Assembly: GCA_005116835.1 (NCBI GenBank)
Contig: SWDM01000016.1
Coordinates: 509,730-553,463, forward strand
DNA: 43,734 nt
Direction of reading: 5' to 3'
From: Nitrospira sp.
GTDB lineage: Bacteria > Nitrospirota > Nitrospiria > Nitrospirales > Nitrospiraceae
Part shown: positions 1 through 33,736 of the stretch, piece after piece
Position numbering within the stretch: position 1 is the first letter of the stretch
How the letters are laid out: every line of letters begins with the position of its first letter
Made by a program: the position numbers and the translations under genes
The notes under the pieces: model-generated
Told to the model about the DNA's origin: nothing
Databases searched by the model: none
The model's input: only the letters and a program-made list of their open reading frames with translations

Positions 1-1115
1 CTCCCGTTGTTCGTCGGGCCGCTGTCCGCATGCACCAGCACGTTATAGTTACGATCTGCAATGAGATAGCAGTTGCGCGGCATCTCCAGATCGCAAGGGT
101 CTTCCCCGTAAAACGGCACAGAATACACGGCCCCTCCGTCGAATGCCCAGCTCTCGCCATGGGCCAATTCAATCACCCGAACGAATCCCAGCTCCCGCAA
201 GAGCGACAGATAATCGTAAGAGAATGTGCGCCGATTCCTTCGGCTCGGCACGATGATCGGCGTGTCTTTGGGCAGGTGCAAGAGTGTGCGAGGGTCCACA
301 TGATCGTCGTGGTCGTGGGTCAAGAAGACGGCAGCCGGTTTGGGCAATAACGATCCCCAGAGCGACGGGACGGAAGACTCTGCAAACCAGGGAAGCAGCC
401 AGGGATCGAACCACAAGGCTTGATCGCGCTGCCGATAGAGCAGCGCGGCATGGCCGAGATGGACCATGTCTTGATCATGCAGCGTCTCAAACCAGTGGGA
501 TCTGACGGAGGAGGTGTTTGATCCGACCAAACACTCATGCTGGTGGAGCGACTCGATCAGTCGCGTGAGCAGACGCTCTCCGTCTCGCCCCGAAGTCGCC
601 ACCACCGTTTTGATTTCCTCTGCCTGGTACGTGCCGTCCAGGAACCCCAGGATCTTTCCAACCAGCGGTCCCAGCGGTCGCTGGTCAAACCCAATTGGAA
701 TCGCCTGCCGCTTTACGGAATTGAAGATCCGGAGCCCACCGTTGGTGACCGTAGCAGATTTGGCAGGGTCAGTCGGAAACTCCCAGTGAAACGTACCGTC
801 CGGTCTCCGCCCACATCGAATATGCTGCTGCAGATAGGGGCGGGCGCTGATCACTTCCGCGTAGGCATCTTCCAGACGCCGCTGACGATCAGGGTCGTCG
901 AGCGGAGCTCGCTTGGAAAAAACATCGCTGATGGCGGTATCAACTGCGCTAGAGAGAAGCCCATGAGCTTCATGGAGGCTCGCAACAACTTCAGGCGCCA
1001 CCCCTGCAATAAAGGGAAAGGGCCCAGGAGGGTCCGCGCTCTCCAGTTGCACCCAGGACCAGGGCGCGAGGCTCAGATACTGTCCGCGCGGTAAGTTGTT
1101 CCAGATCTGGCTCAT
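1..1115 (-). CDS. MBL-fold metallo-hydrolase, 3' end beyond window
   Basis: An open frame without stops runs from an ATG at 1115 to the left edge, about 371 codons, so the C-terminus is missing. The metal-binding signature THDHDDHVD (the H-x-H-x-D-H motif of metallo-beta-lactamase-fold hydrolases) lies about 270 residues in. It is followed by strands typical of the fold and a second His/Asp segment (LVHADSG) near the edge. The first roughly 200 residues contain no MBL motif; one part (around FLDGTYQAEEIKTVV) looks like a small winged-helix or PqqD-like domain, so this may be a two-domain enzyme. The substrate cannot be inferred. The start lies six bases from a period-7 repeat array at 1121, which therefore forms its upstream region. 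Confidence 0.8.
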   Translation of the reverse strand, partial: MSQIWNNLPRGQYLSLAPWSWVQLESADPPGPFPFIAGVAPEVVASLHEAHGLLSSAVDTAISDVFSKRAPLDDPDRQRRLEDAYAEVISARPYLQQHIRCGRRPDGTFHWEFPTDPAKSATVTNGGLRIFNSVKRQAIPIGFDQRPLGPLVGKILGFLDGTYQAEEIKTVVATSGRDGERLLTRLIESLHQHECLVGSNTSSVRSHWFETLHDQDMVHLGHAALLYRQRDQALWFDPWLLPWFAESSVPSLWGSLLPKPAAVFLTHDHDDHVDPRTLLHLPKDTPIIVPSRRNRRTFSYDYLSLLRELGFVRVIELAHGESWAFDGGAVYSVPFYGEDPCDLEMPRNCYLIADRNYNVLVHADSGPTNNG

Positions 1116-1120
1116 AGATA

Positions 1121-1153
1121 TGAGTGCTGAGTGCTGAGTGCTGAGACGTGAAG
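1121..1153. repeat. Period-7 array (TGAGTGC), left arm
   Basis: Three perfect TGAGTGC units are followed by TGAGACG and TGAAGAC. The array ends next to the stop codon of the four-helix-bundle gene at 1155. An inverted counterpart lies beyond the other end of that gene at 1573-1606, sharing the exact core AGTGCTGAGACGT. Related arrays occur at 29289-29386 and 33616-33643. Confidence 0.85.
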
Positions 1154-1154
1154 A

Positions 1155-1556
1155 CTAGCAACCATGTGATTTCTGTTCTGCACGGCGGCGTTGGACCGCC
1201 GACCTGAGTCCGCCGAGGACAAGAGAAACTTCCTTCGCGAGACTCATCAGTTCGTTGAACGTCCCGTCATCGACATACTTGGCGTCATGCGCGACGTACA
1301 AGTGAGAGCGACGCTCCGCGCAAGAGGACTTGGCAATGCTCAAGAACTGGTGAAACTCCGATTGCCTGGCTCGCTCAAACCCCTCGGCAATATTGGCCAT
1401 GATGGAGACTGACGAACGTCTGACCTGATCTCGTAATCCAAAGTCTTTCGCAAAATGCCCTTTCCCAGTTACCTCGTACACTTTCTTAGTCAACTCCCGC
1501 GCCTTTTGCCATGCAATGAGATCCTCAAACCGCCTTGCTGCGCTGCGCTCAGGCAT
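1155..1556 (-). CDS. Four-helix-bundle protein (S23/bAvd-like)
   Basis: A 133-residue, largely helical basic protein. It carries the family hallmarks: an N-terminal [19 protein letters not shown] helix, the [20 protein letters not shown] segment, and the [13 protein letters not shown] and E-x3-L helices. Members of this family (23S rRNA intervening-sequence protein, bAvd of diversity-generating retroelements) form four-helix bundles. Most have no known function, and some sit in 23S rRNA insertions. No rRNA or reverse transcriptase is nearby. Inverted period-7 arrays flank the gene closely on both sides (1121-1153 and 1573-1606). A weak ribosome site, GGGA, lies seven bases before the ATG. The enclosed arrangement suggests a cassette rather than a resident gene. 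Confidence 0.9.
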
Positions 1557-1572
1557 TATCGTTTCCCTATAT

Positions 1573-1606
1573 TCTCAGCACTCAGCACTTACGTCTCAGC
1601 ACTGAA
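1573..1606. repeat. Period-7 array, right arm
   Basis: CTCAGCA/CTCAGCA-type units, then an ACGTCTCAGCACTGAA core that is the inverse of part of the left arm at 1121. The array overlaps the 3' end of the VOC gene and supplies its last codons (RFSAET and stop). It also lies just upstream of the four-helix-bundle gene's start, so it is that gene's promoter-side flank. Confidence 0.85.
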
Positions 1607-2026
1607 CCTCAGCTTGCCGATCATAGGTTCGTACAGAGCTTGAATGACAATCCCGTCGGGATCGGAGAAGTAAAAGGAATAGCTGCCGTCGCGATGCTGC
1701 TTCGGCGGTGTCACAACCTGCCCGCCCAGCTGTGGCAGACGCGGCTCGACTTCCCGATACATCCGATCGACTGCCTCGGGGCTCTCAAGGATCACGCCGA
1801 TATGATCCAATAATTGCCCCTTCGAGGGTTGATACGTGGCGAGTTCGGACGAAGGAATCTGGTGTAAAGCAAAATTATCCGGTCCGGAACTGAAATACAC
1901 ATTGTCGGGATCCGGCTCCCACACCACCTTCATCCCCAACAGCTGTTCATAGAATGCGCGAGAGCGCGCGAGGTTCGTGACGCGCAGCGCCACATGGCGT
2001 AATCCTCGATGGAGCGGAGCAGTCAT
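1589..2026 (-). CDS. VOC/glyoxalase-family protein
   Basis: About 145 residues with the paired beta-alpha-beta-beta-beta modules of the vicinal oxygen chelate fold: LRHVALRVTNLARSRAFYE at the start, then DHIGVILES, then FYFSDPDG near the end. His11 and the His of DHIGV are likely metal ligands. The position normally held by the terminal metal-ligand Glu (after DPDG) reads IVIQAL, a Gln, so metal chemistry may differ. I prefer the ATG at 2026 over 2032 because AGGGG then has a six-base spacing. The last codons (RFSAET) are encoded by the period-7 repeat at 1573-1606, so the native C-terminus was probably different. The substrate is unknown. Confidence 0.85.
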   Translation of the reverse strand: MTAPLHRGLRHVALRVTNLARSRAFYEQLLGMKVVWEPDPDNVYFSSGPDNFALHQIPSSELATYQPSKGQLLDHIGVILESPEAVDRMYREVEPRLPQLGGQVVTPPKQHRDGSYSFYFSDPDGIVIQALYEPMIGKLRFSAET

Positions 2027-2177
2027 AGTCATCCCCTGTTAAACTCGTATAGTAGGGAGCGACCTCCGCTCCGTCAATTGAAAATCCTTGAGGCTCGCTC
2101 CCCCCACTCGAACCAACAGGCGCACTTCGTCTTTGGCTAATTATGGTACGATGTACGCGCCCAAGACAGGCAAGTAG

Positions 2178-2205
2178 GATTTGGCGATCTGGCGATTTGG
2201 TGAAG
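2178..2205. repeat. Period-8 array (GATTTGGC), left arm
   Basis: Three 8-base units, GATTTGGC, GATCTGGC and GATTTGGT, then GAAG. The array ends one base before the ATG of the four-helix-bundle gene at 2207, so its GGTGAAG tail is the only candidate ribosome-binding sequence. The inverted counterpart is at 2618-2649; the two arms match at 24 of 28 positions by hand alignment. Confidence 0.85.
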
Positions 2206-2206
2206 T

Positions 2207-2572
2207 ATGGGAACCGTTGGAGCTGAAGATCTGAGGCAACGGACCAAGCGCTTCGCTCTTCTCATAGTGAAATTGTCTCAACAACTCACGCATGGAAGGG
2301 AAGCGAGGGTCATTGGTGATCAGCTACTTCGGGCAGGGACAGCGGTCGCTGCAAACTATCGAGCAGCTTGTCGCGGACGATCGAGAGCGGAGTTTATTGC
2401 TAAGCTCGGAATTGTGGTTGAAGAAGCGGACGAGACAGTGTTCTGGTGTGAGCTTCTTGAAGAGGCCGGAATCGCCACTCCTGAAGTAATTCAGCCCGTC
2501 ATGGGTGAAGCGAGAGAACTTCTGGCAATATTCTCGGCAGCTCGAAAAACGGCCAAGGCTCGAAAAGTTTAG
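2207..2572 (+). CDS. Four-helix-bundle protein (S23/bAvd-like), second copy
   Basis: 121 residues with the same family signature as the gene at 1155: an N-terminal RTKRFALLIVKLSQQL helix, then QLLRAGTAVAANYRAACRG, then FIAKLGIVVEEADETVFWCELLEEAG. The two proteins are clearly diverged, so this is not a recent tandem duplication. The gene is enclosed by inverted period-8 arrays at 2178-2205 and 2618-2649 and begins immediately after the left one. The function is unknown; family members are helical bundles, some involved in binding nucleic acid or retroelement reverse transcriptase. It is co-directional with hemD, 41 bases downstream. Confidence 0.9.
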   Translation: MGTVGAEDLRQRTKRFALLIVKLSQQLTHGREARVIGDQLLRAGTAVAANYRAACRGRSRAEFIAKLGIVVEEADETVFWCELLEEAGIATPEVIQPVMGEARELLAIFSAARKTAKARKV

Positions 2573-2613
2573 GCCGTTACTACAGACTCTTCTGAGCAAC
2601 TACATCAATACCC

Positions 2614-3492
2614 ATGGCTTCACCAGATCGCCAAATCACCAAATTACACTTTCAAGGGCTCACCGTCGCCTCATTTGAGTCTCGCATGGCGGCAGAGATC
2701 GCCAGGCTCATTGAGCGCCATGGGGGAAAGCCTCTCGTCACTCCTGCCCTTCGCGAGATTCCACTCGATGACAATTCCGCAGCGCTGAAGTTTGGGGACC
2801 GGCTGACGACCGAGCGGGTCGATATGCTCATTCTTCTTACCGGCGTCGGGACAACCGCACTGTTCGATCTCCTCAAAACACGCAATCCCTGGCCGTCGAT
2901 TGTGGCAGCCCTCAAACAGACGGTTATCGTTGCCAGAGGACCCAAGCCGGTCTCAGCCCTCAAATCACTCGGCCTCCAACCGACTCTGACAGTGCCGGAA
3001 CCGAACACCTGGATCGATCTGATCTCCACGCTGGATGAGTATCGGCCGGTGAAGGGATTGCGCGTCGCCGTGCAGGAATATGGGACGTCAAATCATGATC
3101 TGCTAGAGGCCTTAAAACAGCGCGGGGCTGAAGTCTTTCAGGTTCCCATCTATCGCTGGACGCTCCCAGAAGATCTGGGGCCGCTGCGGCAGGTTCTCGA
3201 CGAAATTATCGCTGAGAATGTGCCAGCACTGCTCATCACCAATGCTGCCCAAGTAGATCATGTGATGCAGGTATTGGAGAAAGACGGAAAGGCAGAGCCC
3301 TTTCGTGCCGCGCTCAAGAAGATGGTCATCGCCTCCATCGGCCCGACTGCCAGCGAACGGCTGCGCCATTACGAGTGGCCGATCGACCTCGAACCCTCCC
3401 ACCCGAAGATGGGAGTGCTCGTCAAAGAATGTGCCGAGCAGGTACAGACGCTGCTGAACACCAAACGCTGTGCGATGTATCCTAAACTGTGA
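2614..3492 (+). CDS. hemD: Uroporphyrinogen-III synthase
   Basis: 292 residues with the bilobed HemD pattern. The N-lobe has the GLTVASFESRMAAEIARL opening and MLILLTGVGTTALFDLL. The C-lobe has VAVQEYGTSNHDLLEAL, PALLITNAAQVDHVMQVL and VIASIGPTASERLRHY. HemD closes hydroxymethylbilane to uroporphyrinogen III in tetrapyrrole (haem, sirohaem) synthesis. The family is poorly conserved in sequence and the call rests on the overall pattern. The first 12 residues (MASPDRQITKLH) are encoded by the right arm of the period-8 array at 2618-2649, so the start codon appears to have been supplied or displaced by that repeat; the family-like part begins at about residue 13. No other haem genes are adjacent. 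Confidence 0.85.
   Translation: MASPDRQITKLHFQGLTVASFESRMAAEIARLIERHGGKPLVTPALREIPLDDNSAALKFGDRLTTERVDMLILLTGVGTTALFDLLKTRNPWPSIVAALKQTVIVARGPKPVSALKSLGLQPTLTVPEPNTWIDLISTLDEYRPVKGLRVAVQEYGTSNHDLLEALKQRGAEVFQVPIYRWTLPEDLGPLRQVLDEIIAENVPALLITNAAQVDHVMQVLEKDGKAEPFRAALKKMVIASIGPTASERLRHYEWPIDLEPSHPKMGVLVKECAEQVQTLLNTKRCAMYPKL
2618..2649. repeat. Period-8 array, right arm, inside the hemD start
   Basis: The inverse of the array at 2178: CACCAGATCGCCAAATCACC and a further unit. It lies within codons 2-12 of hemD. Together the arms enclose 2207-2572, giving an element of roughly 470 bp. Confidence 0.85.
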
Positions 3493-3542
3493 CCATCAAA
3501 CTCCTGCTGGTAGCAATGGTTTTTCACAGTCTGCCAAGCCGG

Positions 3543-4544
3543 TTACGACAGAACGAGCACCCCGGCTCCCGAATAGCCCCCGGCTTTTAGCTCTTGCAGC
3601 GCGCGGTTGGCATCGGCGAGGGGGAACATCACGGTATGGGGTTTGATGGGAATGGCTGCTGCCTCGCGCAGGAGATCGAGCCCGTCCTGCCTCGTGTTGG
3701 CCGTGACGCTTCGAATGACCTTCTCTCCAAAGACCTCGCGATCATAATCGAGCGACGGAATCGGCGTCATATGAATACCGGCAAGGACGAGCGTGCCGCC
3801 GCGCTCTAATGCACGTAAGGCAGGCGGTATCAATTCCCCGGCCGGTGCAAAGATGATCGAGCTGTGGAGCTTGTCCGGCAGCTGGTCGGTCGCTCCACCC
3901 ACCCATGTGGCACCCAACTCATGTGCGAGACGTCGGTGTTCGGGTTTCAACGAGCTGACATAGACCTGGCAGCCCCAATGGCGCGCGATCTGGATGGCAA
4001 TGTGAGCGGACGCTCCAAACCCATAGAGACCCAGCCGCTGACCTGGCTGAATTCCGCTCAGGCGCAACGCGCGGTAGCCAATGATCCCGGCACAGAGAAG
4101 AGGGGCCGCCGCTGCATCGCTGAAGACCCGTGGAATCGGATAGGCAAAGTCGGCTGGAACAATCGCATATTCCGCATACCCGCCATCGATCTGATAGCCG
4201 GTAAACCTAGCGCGCTCGCACAAGTTCTCACGCCCGCTCGTGCAAAATTCGCAGGCACCGCACGTATGCTGCAACCAGGCAATCCCCACTCGCTCTCCGA
4301 CCCTCCGCTCGCTCACCCCAGCGCCAACCCGACTGACAACTCCAACGGCTTGGTGGCCGGGAATGAGCGGAAGCGAAGGATTCGGCAACTCACCTTCAAT
4401 GACGTGAAGGTCCGTCCGGCAAATCCCACAGACCGTGAGACGAACCAAGACTTCTCCAGATCCTGGCTCTGGAATTGGAAGCTCACGCAACTGTAGCGGG
4501 GCAGTTCCCACATCTGCTGTGCTCGATAACACCATCGCCTTCAT
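3543..4544 (-). CDS. Zinc-dependent alcohol dehydrogenase (MDR superfamily)
   Basis: 333 residues, the usual length. The catalytic zinc site is visible at Cys42 (CGICRTDLH) and His64. The residue after His64 is Gln (PGHQAVG) where many relatives have Glu. The structural zinc cysteines are at about 95, 98, 101 and 109 (CGACEFCTSGRENLC). The Rossmann region has GLYGFGASAHIAIQIA around 170-185. It should oxidise an alcohol or reduce an aldehyde with NAD(P); the substrate is not evident. The gene stands alone, convergent with hemD and separated from yceI's neighbourhood by a hairpin element. No strong ribosome site is visible before the ATG. Confidence 0.9.
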   Translation of the reverse strand: MKAMVLSSTADVGTAPLQLRELPIPEPGSGEVLVRLTVCGICRTDLHVIEGELPNPSLPLIPGHQAVGVVSRVGAGVSERRVGERVGIAWLQHTCGACEFCTSGRENLCERARFTGYQIDGGYAEYAIVPADFAYPIPRVFSDAAAAPLLCAGIIGYRALRLSGIQPGQRLGLYGFGASAHIAIQIARHWGCQVYVSSLKPEHRRLAHELGATWVGGATDQLPDKLHSSIIFAPAGELIPPALRALERGGTLVLAGIHMTPIPSLDYDREVFGEKVIRSVTANTRQDGLDLLREAAAIPIKPHTVMFPLADANRALQELKAGGYSGAGVLVLS

Positions 4545-6430: not shown

Positions 6431-6526
6431 CGTCTGGTTGATCTGGTATGTTTGGTTTGTCTCGTTTATTTGGTTGAATGAATCTAACCAGATAAACCAA
6501 ACAAACCAGATCAACCAGATATACCG
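6431..6526. repeat. Period-9 palindrome, copy 1
   Basis: Left arm units of nine bases (TTGATCTGG, TATGTTTGG, TTTGTCTCG, TTTATTTGG) face a right arm of CCAGATAAA, CCAAACAAA, CCAGATCAA, CCAGATATA. The arms are imperfect inverse copies around a roughly 10-base centre. It occupies the divergent promoter region of the TonB-C gene and tdh. Confidence 0.85.
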
Positions 6527-6556
6527 GGCTAGGAGCTCGTGGTATACAATGAACCC

Positions 6557-7591: not shown

Positions 7592-7595
7592 AAAG

Positions 7596-7692
7596 CTTTC
7601 AGCTGTCAGCCTTCAGCTATCAGCCTGGATTTCATGCGAAAATGTTCTGCTTCTGCGTCCATCCGAAGCTGACAGCTAATCGCTGACGGCTG
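7596..7692. repeat. Period-7 palindrome between tdh and kbl
   Basis: Left arm units CAGCTGT, CAGCCTT, CAGCTAT, CAGCCTG at 7600-7627. The right arm is their inverse (GCTGACAGCTAATCGCTGACGG region, 7668-7692). About 35 unrelated bases lie between the arms. It is the same design as the other periodic palindromes, with a different unit, and it lies inside a likely operon. Confidence 0.8.
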
Positions 7693-7709
7693 TATGCTCA
7701 GTTAAGAAG

Positions 7710-28703: not shown

Positions 28704-29330
28704 TTATTTGACGGTGGTGTCCGAGGTATCCGAGGACGGATCTTTATTCGGCTTTACGAGCAGCCCCGATTCTAACTGGAGCAGAAAGCGGGAAGCCAGA
28801 TCTTCGGCGATAAAACGGCCCGCTTGTTCCAAAGCCCGGTTCTGCAGGACGCGATTAAATTGCAGGTCGGGCGTTACGAAGAACTCCGAGGCGCCCTTGG
28901 CCGTTTGTGCCCAGACGAGACGTTTCGTCCTAGTCTCCTCCACTTTGACAATTACCACGACCTCTGCGCGGCTTTCGAGCGTGGTGGTCTGGCTAAAACT
29001 GAGCGTTGGAAGACTGACCGAGAGAATCTGCCCGGAGAGTACAAGATCGGCCGCCTCATCCTCCTGAACGATCTGGGCCCCGCTACCGGAGGAAAACTCA
29101 TGGCGCAGATAATTCGTATAGCGGGTTTCTAAATTTGGCTCAAAGGTTTTGTTCTCCAACGGCAATACGACCAGCCGCGGTGGTGGAACCCTTAGAGAAG
29201 AAGTCTCTGCAGCCCCCCCGATCGTAGGCCCGGCTCCCTCCACACGGAACTGATAACCGCACGCGCCCAGAAGTGCAAGGGTCAGACACAGTGCTGAGAT
29301 CTGAGTGCTGAGAATAGAAAGAGACCACAC
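28704..29330 (-). CDS. lptE: LPS-assembly lipoprotein LptE
   Basis: Start uncertain. From the GTG at 29330 the protein is 208 residues and opens with VWSLSILSTQISALCLTLAL and then the lipobox LLGAC (Cys at about 24). The first half of this signal is encoded by the period-7 repeat at 29289. The mature part has the LptE pattern: YQFRVEG, VVLPLENKTFEPNLETRYTN, AADLVLSGQILSVSLPTLSF and a QFNRVLQNRALEQAGRFIAEDL helix. LptE plugs LptD and helps insert lipopolysaccharide. Its position between leuS and holA is the classic gene order. The n-region lacks a positive charge from this start, so an upstream non-ATG start is possible. Confidence 0.85.
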   Translation of the reverse strand: MWSLSILSTQISALCLTLALLGACGYQFRVEGAGPTIGGAAETSSLRVPPPRLVVLPLENKTFEPNLETRYTNYLRHEFSSGSGAQIVQEDEAADLVLSGQILSVSLPTLSFSQTTTLESRAEVVVIVKVEETRTKRLVWAQTAKGASEFFVTPDLQFNRVLQNRALEQAGRFIAEDLASRFLLQLESGLLVKPNKDPSSDTSDTTVK

Positions 29331-29386
29331 TCTCTCGATCCGAATCGCACCATTTTTAGTCTCAGCACTCAGCACCCAGCACTCCC
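29289..29386. repeat. Period-7 palindrome between leuS and lptE
   Basis: Left arm CAGTGCTGAGATCTGAGTGC (29289-29308, extending to 29313). The right arm is the inverse, CTCAGCACTCAGCACCCAGC, at 29361-29380 and on to 29386. The spacer is about 45 bases. The unit is the same as at 1121 and 33616. The right arm abuts the leuS stop codon and the left arm lies in the lptE signal-peptide codons. Confidence 0.85.
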
Positions 29387-32951: not shown

Positions 32952-33650
32952 CTAAATCACAGGCCGTCCGTTAAGGAGTAAGGAAAAACCTGCCACCGAG
33001 ACGAACTGAGGGAGCGGGGCGGGAGGCAGCTGAGAACTCGATTTGGCACTATGAATGAGGTGAACGACGCCAAAACGTTGTGCCGCAACCAAGCAGCCTT
33101 CGTCATCATCCATGAAGAGAGACCTTGCCGGATCGAATCCCAACAACCGCTGACAATTAGGCCAATACTCCGGACGCATTTTTAAATAACCCACTTCAAA
33201 CGCATTCACGATGCGATCCACATGCCGATCGAGCCCGGTCTTGGCAACTTTCACCAACACACCCGCATCGTGCGCATTCGTCACAATCGTCACTCGCTTC
33301 CCAAGCTGGCGAAGATAGCGCAAAAATTCCTCCGCACCGGGCAGAAATCCGATCATGTGGTCCAGTTCCTTATGCATTGCCACGACATCGATGCCCACCT
33401 GCTTAGTCCAGTAATGCAGATCGGTCCAGGCCAATTCGCCTTCGACGGACCGATACATAGCCATTAACCGATCTCGCGAGTCCTCGAAGGTGAGGCTGTG
33501 GAGCGCGGCATAGCGACGCGGCAACTCTTCTTCGAAAAAGAAGTTGTCGAAATGGCGGTCCAGCAATGTGCCATCCATGTCGAGCAAAACATCGTCAATC
33601 TCATCCCAATGGAGGGAGTGCTGAGTGCTGAGTGCTGGGTATTGGGTCAT
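32952..33650 (-). CDS. HAD-superfamily hydrolase
   Basis: 232 residues. Motif I is DVLLDMDGTLLD near 20-31, giving the nucleophile Asp and general acid. Motif II is KRVTIVTNAHDAG at about 115, and MRPEYWPNCQ with SLFMDDDEGCLVAA supplies the Lys/Asp of motifs III and IV. It resembles GMP/IMP 5'-nucleotidase (YrfG) type HADs: a cap between motifs I and II and a Mg-dependent phosphatase role. The first 11 residues (MTQYPALSTQH) are encoded by the period-7 repeat at 33616; no other start is available before motif I. It is divergent from der. Confidence 0.88.
   Translation of the reverse strand: MTQYPALSTQHSLHWDEIDDVLLDMDGTLLDRHFDNFFFEEELPRRYAALHSLTFEDSRDRLMAMYRSVEGELAWTDLHYWTKQVGIDVVAMHKELDHMIGFLPGAEEFLRYLRQLGKRVTIVTNAHDAGVLVKVAKTGLDRHVDRIVNAFEVGYLKMRPEYWPNCQRLLGFDPARSLFMDDDEGCLVAAQRFGVVHLIHSAKSSSQLPPAPLPQFVSVAGFSLLLNGRPVI
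33616..33643. repeat. Period-7 array at the HAD start
   Basis: GAGTGCTGAGTGCTGAGTGC followed by a degenerate unit. It is a single-arm array with the same unit as 1121 and 29289, placed inside the first codons of the HAD gene. Confidence 0.8.
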
Positions 33651-33736
33651 CGGGAAAGTATAGCGGAGGCCGGATGAGAAGACGAGCCGGTTGTGTTTAC
33701 CAAAATTCTTATGTTACGTTCGAAGCACGATTCCCC

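Follow-up and report, generated by a model that had tools for sequence, protein, structure and literature searches.

S23 genes enclosed by inverted short-period arrays as probable small mobile elements in Nitrospira and other bacteria

Proteins of families PF05635 and TIGR02436, here called S23 after the family name '23S rRNA intervening sequence protein', have previously been known from 23S ribosomal RNA (rRNA) intervening sequences (IVSs) and from structures (2gsc, 2rld), without a function. In the IVSs of Coxiella and Leptospira, an S23 open reading frame (ORF) is found within an inverted-repeat stem of about 430 nt (PMC4990558). The Coxiella ORF lies between inverted repeats and is preceded by three to four heptamers, GACAGAT, the number of which varies among strains, and IVSs have long been proposed to have been mobile (PMC4990558). 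One S23 protein, Xcc0516 (2gsc), is a homopentamer in which four-helix bundles form a ring (PMC4990558). Our subject is a 43,734-nucleotide stretch of Nitrospira sp. DNA (contig SWDM01000016.1, positions 509,730 to 553,463; this whole stretch is 'the window'), in which two S23 genes, S23-1 and S23-2, each are enclosed by inverted, short-period arrays. Such a gene along with its two arrays probably represents one small mobile element, with a ring of the S23 protein reading that element's own units and joining its ends.

Both genes and all four arrays lie where an original prediction, made from the letters of the window by themselves, had placed them, as upheld by sequence reading and by Tandem Repeats Finder (TRF), which recovers every one of the four arrays:

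1121..1153, + strand: array at the downstream end of S23-1 (outer inverted array of element 1), TGAGTGCTGAGTGCTGAGTGCTGAGACGTGAAG; unit TGAGTGC, period 7
1155..1556, - strand: S23-1, a 133-aa four-helix-bundle protein (PF05635/TIGR02436)
1573..1606, - strand: inverted partner array upstream of S23-1, TCTCAGCACTCAGCACTTACGTCTCAGCACTGAA; unit CTCAGCA
2178..2205, + strand: array of element 2, upstream of S23-2, GATTTGGCGATCTGGCGATTTGGTGAAG; unit GATTTGGC, period 8
2207..2572, + strand: S23-2, a 121-aa diverged four-helix-bundle protein (PF05635)
2618..2649, + strand: inverted partner array of element 2, CTTCACCAGATCGCCAAATCACCAAATTACAC

The units of the two loci differ, as was also predicted, with a period of 7 for one and of 8 for the other. 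PF05635 is matched with 121.6 bits by S23-1 (E 2e-35) and with 55.1 bits by S23-2 (E 9.7e-15), the curated cut-off being 33.8, and TIGR02436 is matched with 110.6 and 78.7 bits, respectively (cut-off 24). The only other Pfam match in these proteins is a sub-threshold one, to bAvd, and the solved structure 2gsc is matched by a Nitrospira profile at E 3e-40. Enclosure of an S23 ORF by terminal inverted repeats is as seen with the 23S rRNA IVSs. Both window genes, however, are placed between protein genes, and rRNA is absent from positions 1-4500 of the window (Rfam-type RNA scan), these elements thus being outside of any 23S rRNA gene; nor does Rfam match a known RNA at the elements. The elements described here differ from IVSs as well in being many per genome, in having subfamily-specific units and gene-less relatives, and in having a demonstrated empty site.

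This Nitrospira genome contains ten PF05635 matches, and all ten have inverted short-period arrays close against both ends. Each of these loci has a unit of its own; as read by eye, the units are TCAGCNN, AAGTCNNC, GTGAGGG, AGTGCTG, CAGGCTGAAGG-type, GTGAGTG, TTTGGTTTG, GAGTTCT, TGACG-type, and GATTTGGC. Inversion was scored more generally by locally aligning the upstream flank with the reverse-complemented downstream flank. Scores of at least 18 are found for 38/88 Nitrospirota S23 genes versus 4/1494 same-geometry positions in this genome, and versus 9/600 mismatched S23 flank pairs. When flanks are allowed to overlap the gene a little, and phyla besides the Nitrospirota are included, 195 of 213 S23 genes score at least 14 versus 15 of 212 control genes, those controls being drawn from this single genome and related loci not being independent. 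A score of at least 18 is reached in this same set by 160 S23 genes versus 3 control genes, and periodicity is present in both flanks of 169/213 S23 genes versus 5/212 controls. The cross-phylum sample was built with a single protein query, L001, an S23 element of this genome, and extra genomes were added because that query skews the sample toward its own subfamily. Inverted flanks are seen as well with 38/42 S23 genes from other-phylum genomes that were found without reference to arrays, with 21/25 from an independent gammaproteobacterial set, and with all of the cyanobacterial plasmid copies (9/9). That most homologues are flanked by arrays, a check which the original prediction had suggested, is thus the case, whether in the controlled comparison or in the gammaproteobacterial and plasmid sets. 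A close homologue of Xanthomonas XCC0516 was not found among the 369 genomes sampled, and phages supplied no match.

Period 7 is called in 151/187 upstream and 156/192 downstream arrays (approximately 80%), and the period agrees between the two flanks at 152 of 165 loci (shuffled maximum, 120). The 780 units of the L001 subfamily display a core, TCAGC, and a two-base spacer under hardly any constraint (0.17 and 0.16 bit); as the unit chain search employed CAGC, an unbiased comparison can be made only between the T, which was not selected for (0.97 bit), and the spacer. The mode is 5 units per arm in this subfamily, with a median of about 5 over all loci, for which the threshold imposes a floor near three. 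Spacers are identical in adjacent units 17.5% of the time versus 9.4% at random, i.e., slippage contributes to arrays but does not account for them. Between closely related plasmids (L456 versus L457, L459 versus L460) the unit copy number differs in 14-nt and 7-nt steps, indicating that arrays also change by slippage.

The array unit tracks the protein subfamily, not the host. Array similarity, at loci without shared flanks, is 0.05 below 45% protein identity versus 0.48-0.52 above 75%, and unit similarity correlates with protein identity (Mantel r 0.575; permuted maximum 0.083). This trend persists without the L001 family and also using upstream flanks alone, in which analysis 99 unit clusters are distinguished at the threshold used. 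Paralogues within this one genome share units little (array similarity 0.085); the L001-like genes of about 15 phyla, which are 62% identical, have the unit TCAGCNN in common (array similarity 0.32).

Array, gene, and array together are a mobile DNA unit, with unit and protein co-inherited and with gene-less derivatives. On Trichormus plasmid C (L456), ...TTAAAAAGTAAT is followed by a 423-bp insert and then by GTAATTAACAAAT..., with plasmids of Nostoc linckia, N. carneum, and Tolypothrix carrying an uninterrupted TTAAAAAGTAATTAACAAAT at the same point. Flanks are 97-99.8% identical to those of the empty plasmids over 400 bp on either side. The insert starts with AAATCAGAATTCAG and finishes with ...CTGAGTTCTTCTTT, so that its limits are the outer array ends. 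Its single long ORF is a 121-aa S23, and a 5-bp sequence, GTAAT, is directly duplicated at its junctions. The empty site itself is without an array. At this site, too, a gene-less array foldback is found in Brasilonema and a truncated copy in Nostoc C052; the same S23 subfamily, with the same ends, occurs in further plasmid contexts, one of which (L473 as compared with L478-L480) fits a duplication of the 5 bp TTCTA. The original prediction had gene plus arrays forming one mobile or formerly mobile cassette, and the clean empty site with its 5-bp target duplication supports that proposal.

Likenesses to other small elements can be considered in this light. RAYTs (REP-associated tyrosine transposases) and REPs (repetitive extragenic palindromes), i.e., TnpA-REP and REPIN systems, similarly combine a few gene-bearing inverted-repeat copies with many gene-less intergenic foldbacks. 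S23 elements, however, have tandem-array ends rather than tagged palindromes, and S23-rich genomes may lack Y1 genes. An HUH (Y1) transposase domain was not found in S23 elements (by Pfam on the window, and given the one ORF of the plasmid insert), and, because this domain is missing and a target duplication is made, the S23 element is not a RAYT/REP member. The RAYT/REP analogy that had been drawn for the window consequently stands in its logic, as gene-bearing and gene-less copies share the same unit, but fails as to mechanism. Miniature inverted-repeat transposable elements (MITEs), with their autonomous partners, resemble S23 elements in short inverted repeats, in target duplication (at one plasmid site, with a second consistent), and in non-autonomous copies. 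They differ in that the S23-element terminal repeats are periodic, with a unit that varies from copy to copy, and in that there is no known transposase.

The window possesses in addition five arrays without an S23 gene (6433-6527 to 33616-33637), all outside of what the original prediction covered:

6433..6527, no strand assigned: inverted period-9 arrays (TTTGGTTNN) forming a foldback without a gene; folding energy as DNA -33.4 kcal/mol (z -9.1)
7593..7701, no strand assigned: TCAGCNN arrays in the tdh-kbl gap, forming a foldback without a gene; the unit is that of own-genome S23 element L001
8904..8995, no strand assigned: gene-less foldback, period 9 (TRF, fold)
29290..29384, no strand assigned: gene-less foldback with unit AGTGCTG, which is the unit of element 1 (TRF, fold)
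33616..33637, + strand: single AGTGCTG array (TRF), overlapping the start of a HAD-type ORF (MTQYPALSTQHS...)

Arrays number approximately 355 in this genome, as estimated from a sampled tenth in 20-kb stretches. Most gene-less arrays are foldbacks whose loops measure 10-70 nt, and those of the window fold strongly. Their units are those of Nitrospira S23 arrays more often than in a reversed control (p 2e-12). Their density follows the number of S23 genes (rho 0.80, 17 genomes), and is 73 in 1046 kb (70/Mb) with S23 versus 7 in 466 kb (15/Mb) without S23, in what are small samples of related genomes. The supposition that arrays belong to the gene thus holds insofar as the association exceeds chance, but arrays are also numerous without the gene.

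Orthologous sites within Nitrospira were compared as well. In the gap between the glyoxalase-family gene and a lactamase-like gene, an inverted period-7 array pair is present in all 29 species examined (29/29), with five unit types, but the S23 gene is present in only 3/29. Arms match with scores of 17.2 within species, 16.2 within type, and 9.8 between types, and the unit types need 12 changes on the host-gene tree. The tdh-kbl gap displays the same pattern of fixed array and changing unit, with other units. At L417 (G017), in that gap, the arms are mismatched (score 6), possibly as an intermediate of unit replacement. The loop at the ThrH-RecQ junction varies in content among species: S23, an S23 that is reversed (G042), a DUF559 gene that has ends of its own, or next to nothing. 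The DUF559 (PF04480) gene, with CCTCCCCTTTGTAAGGGGAGG-type ends, sits between TCAGCNN arrays (L338, L339, L340, L343-L345, L350), in the place that S23 occupies in other species. The reversed S23, at L349 (G042), lies between the same outer arrays as in other species, which suggests either that the arms mediated an inversion or that S23 was inserted a second time. As arrays stay while unit, gene, or loop content change, Nitrospira arrays are long-lived 'slots', their unit and content turning over, perhaps via replacement insertion or perhaps via recombination. An array-free empty site corresponding to the window copies is found in none of the 29 species at the glyoxalase gap. The search for empty sites that the original prediction had called for thus has a divided outcome: orthologous Nitrospira sites usually keep the array, and it is cyanobacterial plasmids that provide a clean empty site.

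As to how such an element might move, an element of about 400-500 bp would encode only a four-helix-bundle protein, the homopentameric ring of which would recognise the tandem units of its own element and bring the two element ends together. Each 7-nt step consists of a conserved core, about 5 nt long, and some 2 nt that vary freely; with approximately five units per arm, perhaps one unit is read per subunit. The S23 homopentamer, taken with five or so units per arm, is what suggests this reading, i.e., of a ring like that of TRAP (trp RNA-binding attenuation protein), which would rest on unit pattern, copy number, and the Xcc0516 homopentamer. Transposition might be catalysed by S23 itself or by a partner acting in trans. 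Gene-less foldbacks would then be non-autonomous derivatives, and the 23S rRNA IVSs with S23 ORFs would be similar copies tolerated inside rRNA. That S23 itself transposes or transfers strands as a protein of a new type, with a heptamer per subunit of a 120-residue pentameric ring, with a one-gene element of about 420 bp as complete transposon, and with a specificity that evolves along with the protein, is a possibility which we entertain tentatively and would not call likely. Reverse transcriptase, Y1 transposase, and DUF559 were considered as required partners and rejected, each being missing from some S23-rich genomes.

A number of points weigh against the mobile-element reading. Just one 5-bp duplication is fully clean, the TTCTA site abutting array sequence, and three further presence/absence pairs (plasmid sites 2, 3, and 5) have eroded junctions. 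Nitrospira arrays are mostly site-fixed while unit and gene change, for which simple insertion is inadequate. No known catalytic motif is recognised in S23, including among its nearly invariant residues, which are N, S, E, Q, and R, and among RVT_1, Y1_Tnp, and DUF559 there is no partner common to S23-rich genomes.

An element acting at the RNA level is one alternative, with the arrays forming an RNA stem and the element spreading via RNA and a reverse transcriptase to which S23 would be an Avd-like partner. IVSs, with their RNase III processing, are a precedent (PMC4990558). So, too, is there a resemblance to the Avd (bAvd) of diversity-generating retroelements, a four-helix-bundle homopentamer with distant similarity to S23. 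That similarity is weak, at 13.9 bits in Pfam and, in the Avd family test, 14 bits against a cut-off of 80, and no template or variable repeats adjoin S23 elements. Nor did a Pfam scan of neighbouring genes, covering the window's first 3.5 kb, turn up a reverse transcriptase gene, and the S23-rich genomes G001, G005, and G019 are without an RVT_1 match. Arm mismatches, on the sense strand, are G.U in 240 cases versus A.C in 258 (p 0.45), and this lack of a G.U excess speaks against selection as RNA stems. The clean insertion, in addition, is complete at both ends and has a short duplication. We consider spread via RNA to be unlikely.

Still less probable is that S23 is a TRAP-like repressor for which the arrays are operators near start codons, rather than element ends. 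Arrays do occur immediately ahead of start codons and between cistrons, and units of core plus spacer resemble the target of a ring protein. Regulation by itself, though, leaves unexplained why there is an inverted arm downstream, why the empty site shows a duplication, and why the pairing is spread over phyla; it could still exist alongside mobility. Very improbable, too, is that arrays arise independently as slippage products and are preferred landing sites for S23 genes. S23-less arrays are common and persist where the gene is absent, and unit copy number varies among close relatives, as such an account would have it. But the empty plasmid site lacks an array on which to land, the unit follows protein subfamily across phyla, arrays are few in S23-free genomes, and neighbouring units keep the core while mostly not keeping the spacer. 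That S23 genes merely fall, by chance or hitchhiking, among abundant intergenic arrays, of which there are about 355 per genome at the threshold used, is rejected to near certainty by the control rates (4/1494 positions, 15/212 genes).

The S23-array pairing is undescribed in the open-access literature searched, in keeping with the original prediction's knowing of no description, and this judgement of novelty is provisional as subscription papers and preprints fell outside of the search. Period-7 intergenic arrays have been reported from Xanthomonas, often there as inverted pairs, and from Nostoc and Beggiatoaceae (PMC4692102, PMC4679880). The searched passages of those reports give no S23 link, and their heptamers may be examples of the gene-less form. 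One origin is offered for the heptamer arrays found between genes in many bacteria, and the S23 family is placed, in a probable role, within a widespread class of mobile elements with a subfamily-specific, short-repeat 'end code'. Should S23 alone suffice, this would be a new transposition architecture, and the tiny size of the element makes its mechanism directly accessible in laboratory strains. A figure legend in a survey of CRISPR-linked proteins names the 23S rRNA IVP (PMC10910872), and we conjecture that short arrays beside S23 genes might have been miscalled as CRISPR.

Three smaller observations concern surroundings of the window arrays. Arrays have been absorbed into coding sequence at 1573-1606, where the array supplies the final codons, stop included, of the glyoxalase-family gene (1589-2032), at 2614-2649, where the partner array of element 2 codes for the start of HemD (gene 2614-3492), and at 33610-33653, at the start of the HAD-type ORF. 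In G013, S23-2 has been lost, yet the HemD-side arm of element 2 is kept. Lastly, another repeated sequence, GCAGGATGCTGAAAAAG...CCGCCAGC, recurs in the HemD-glyoxalase gap of several Nitrospira genomes (L200-L218).
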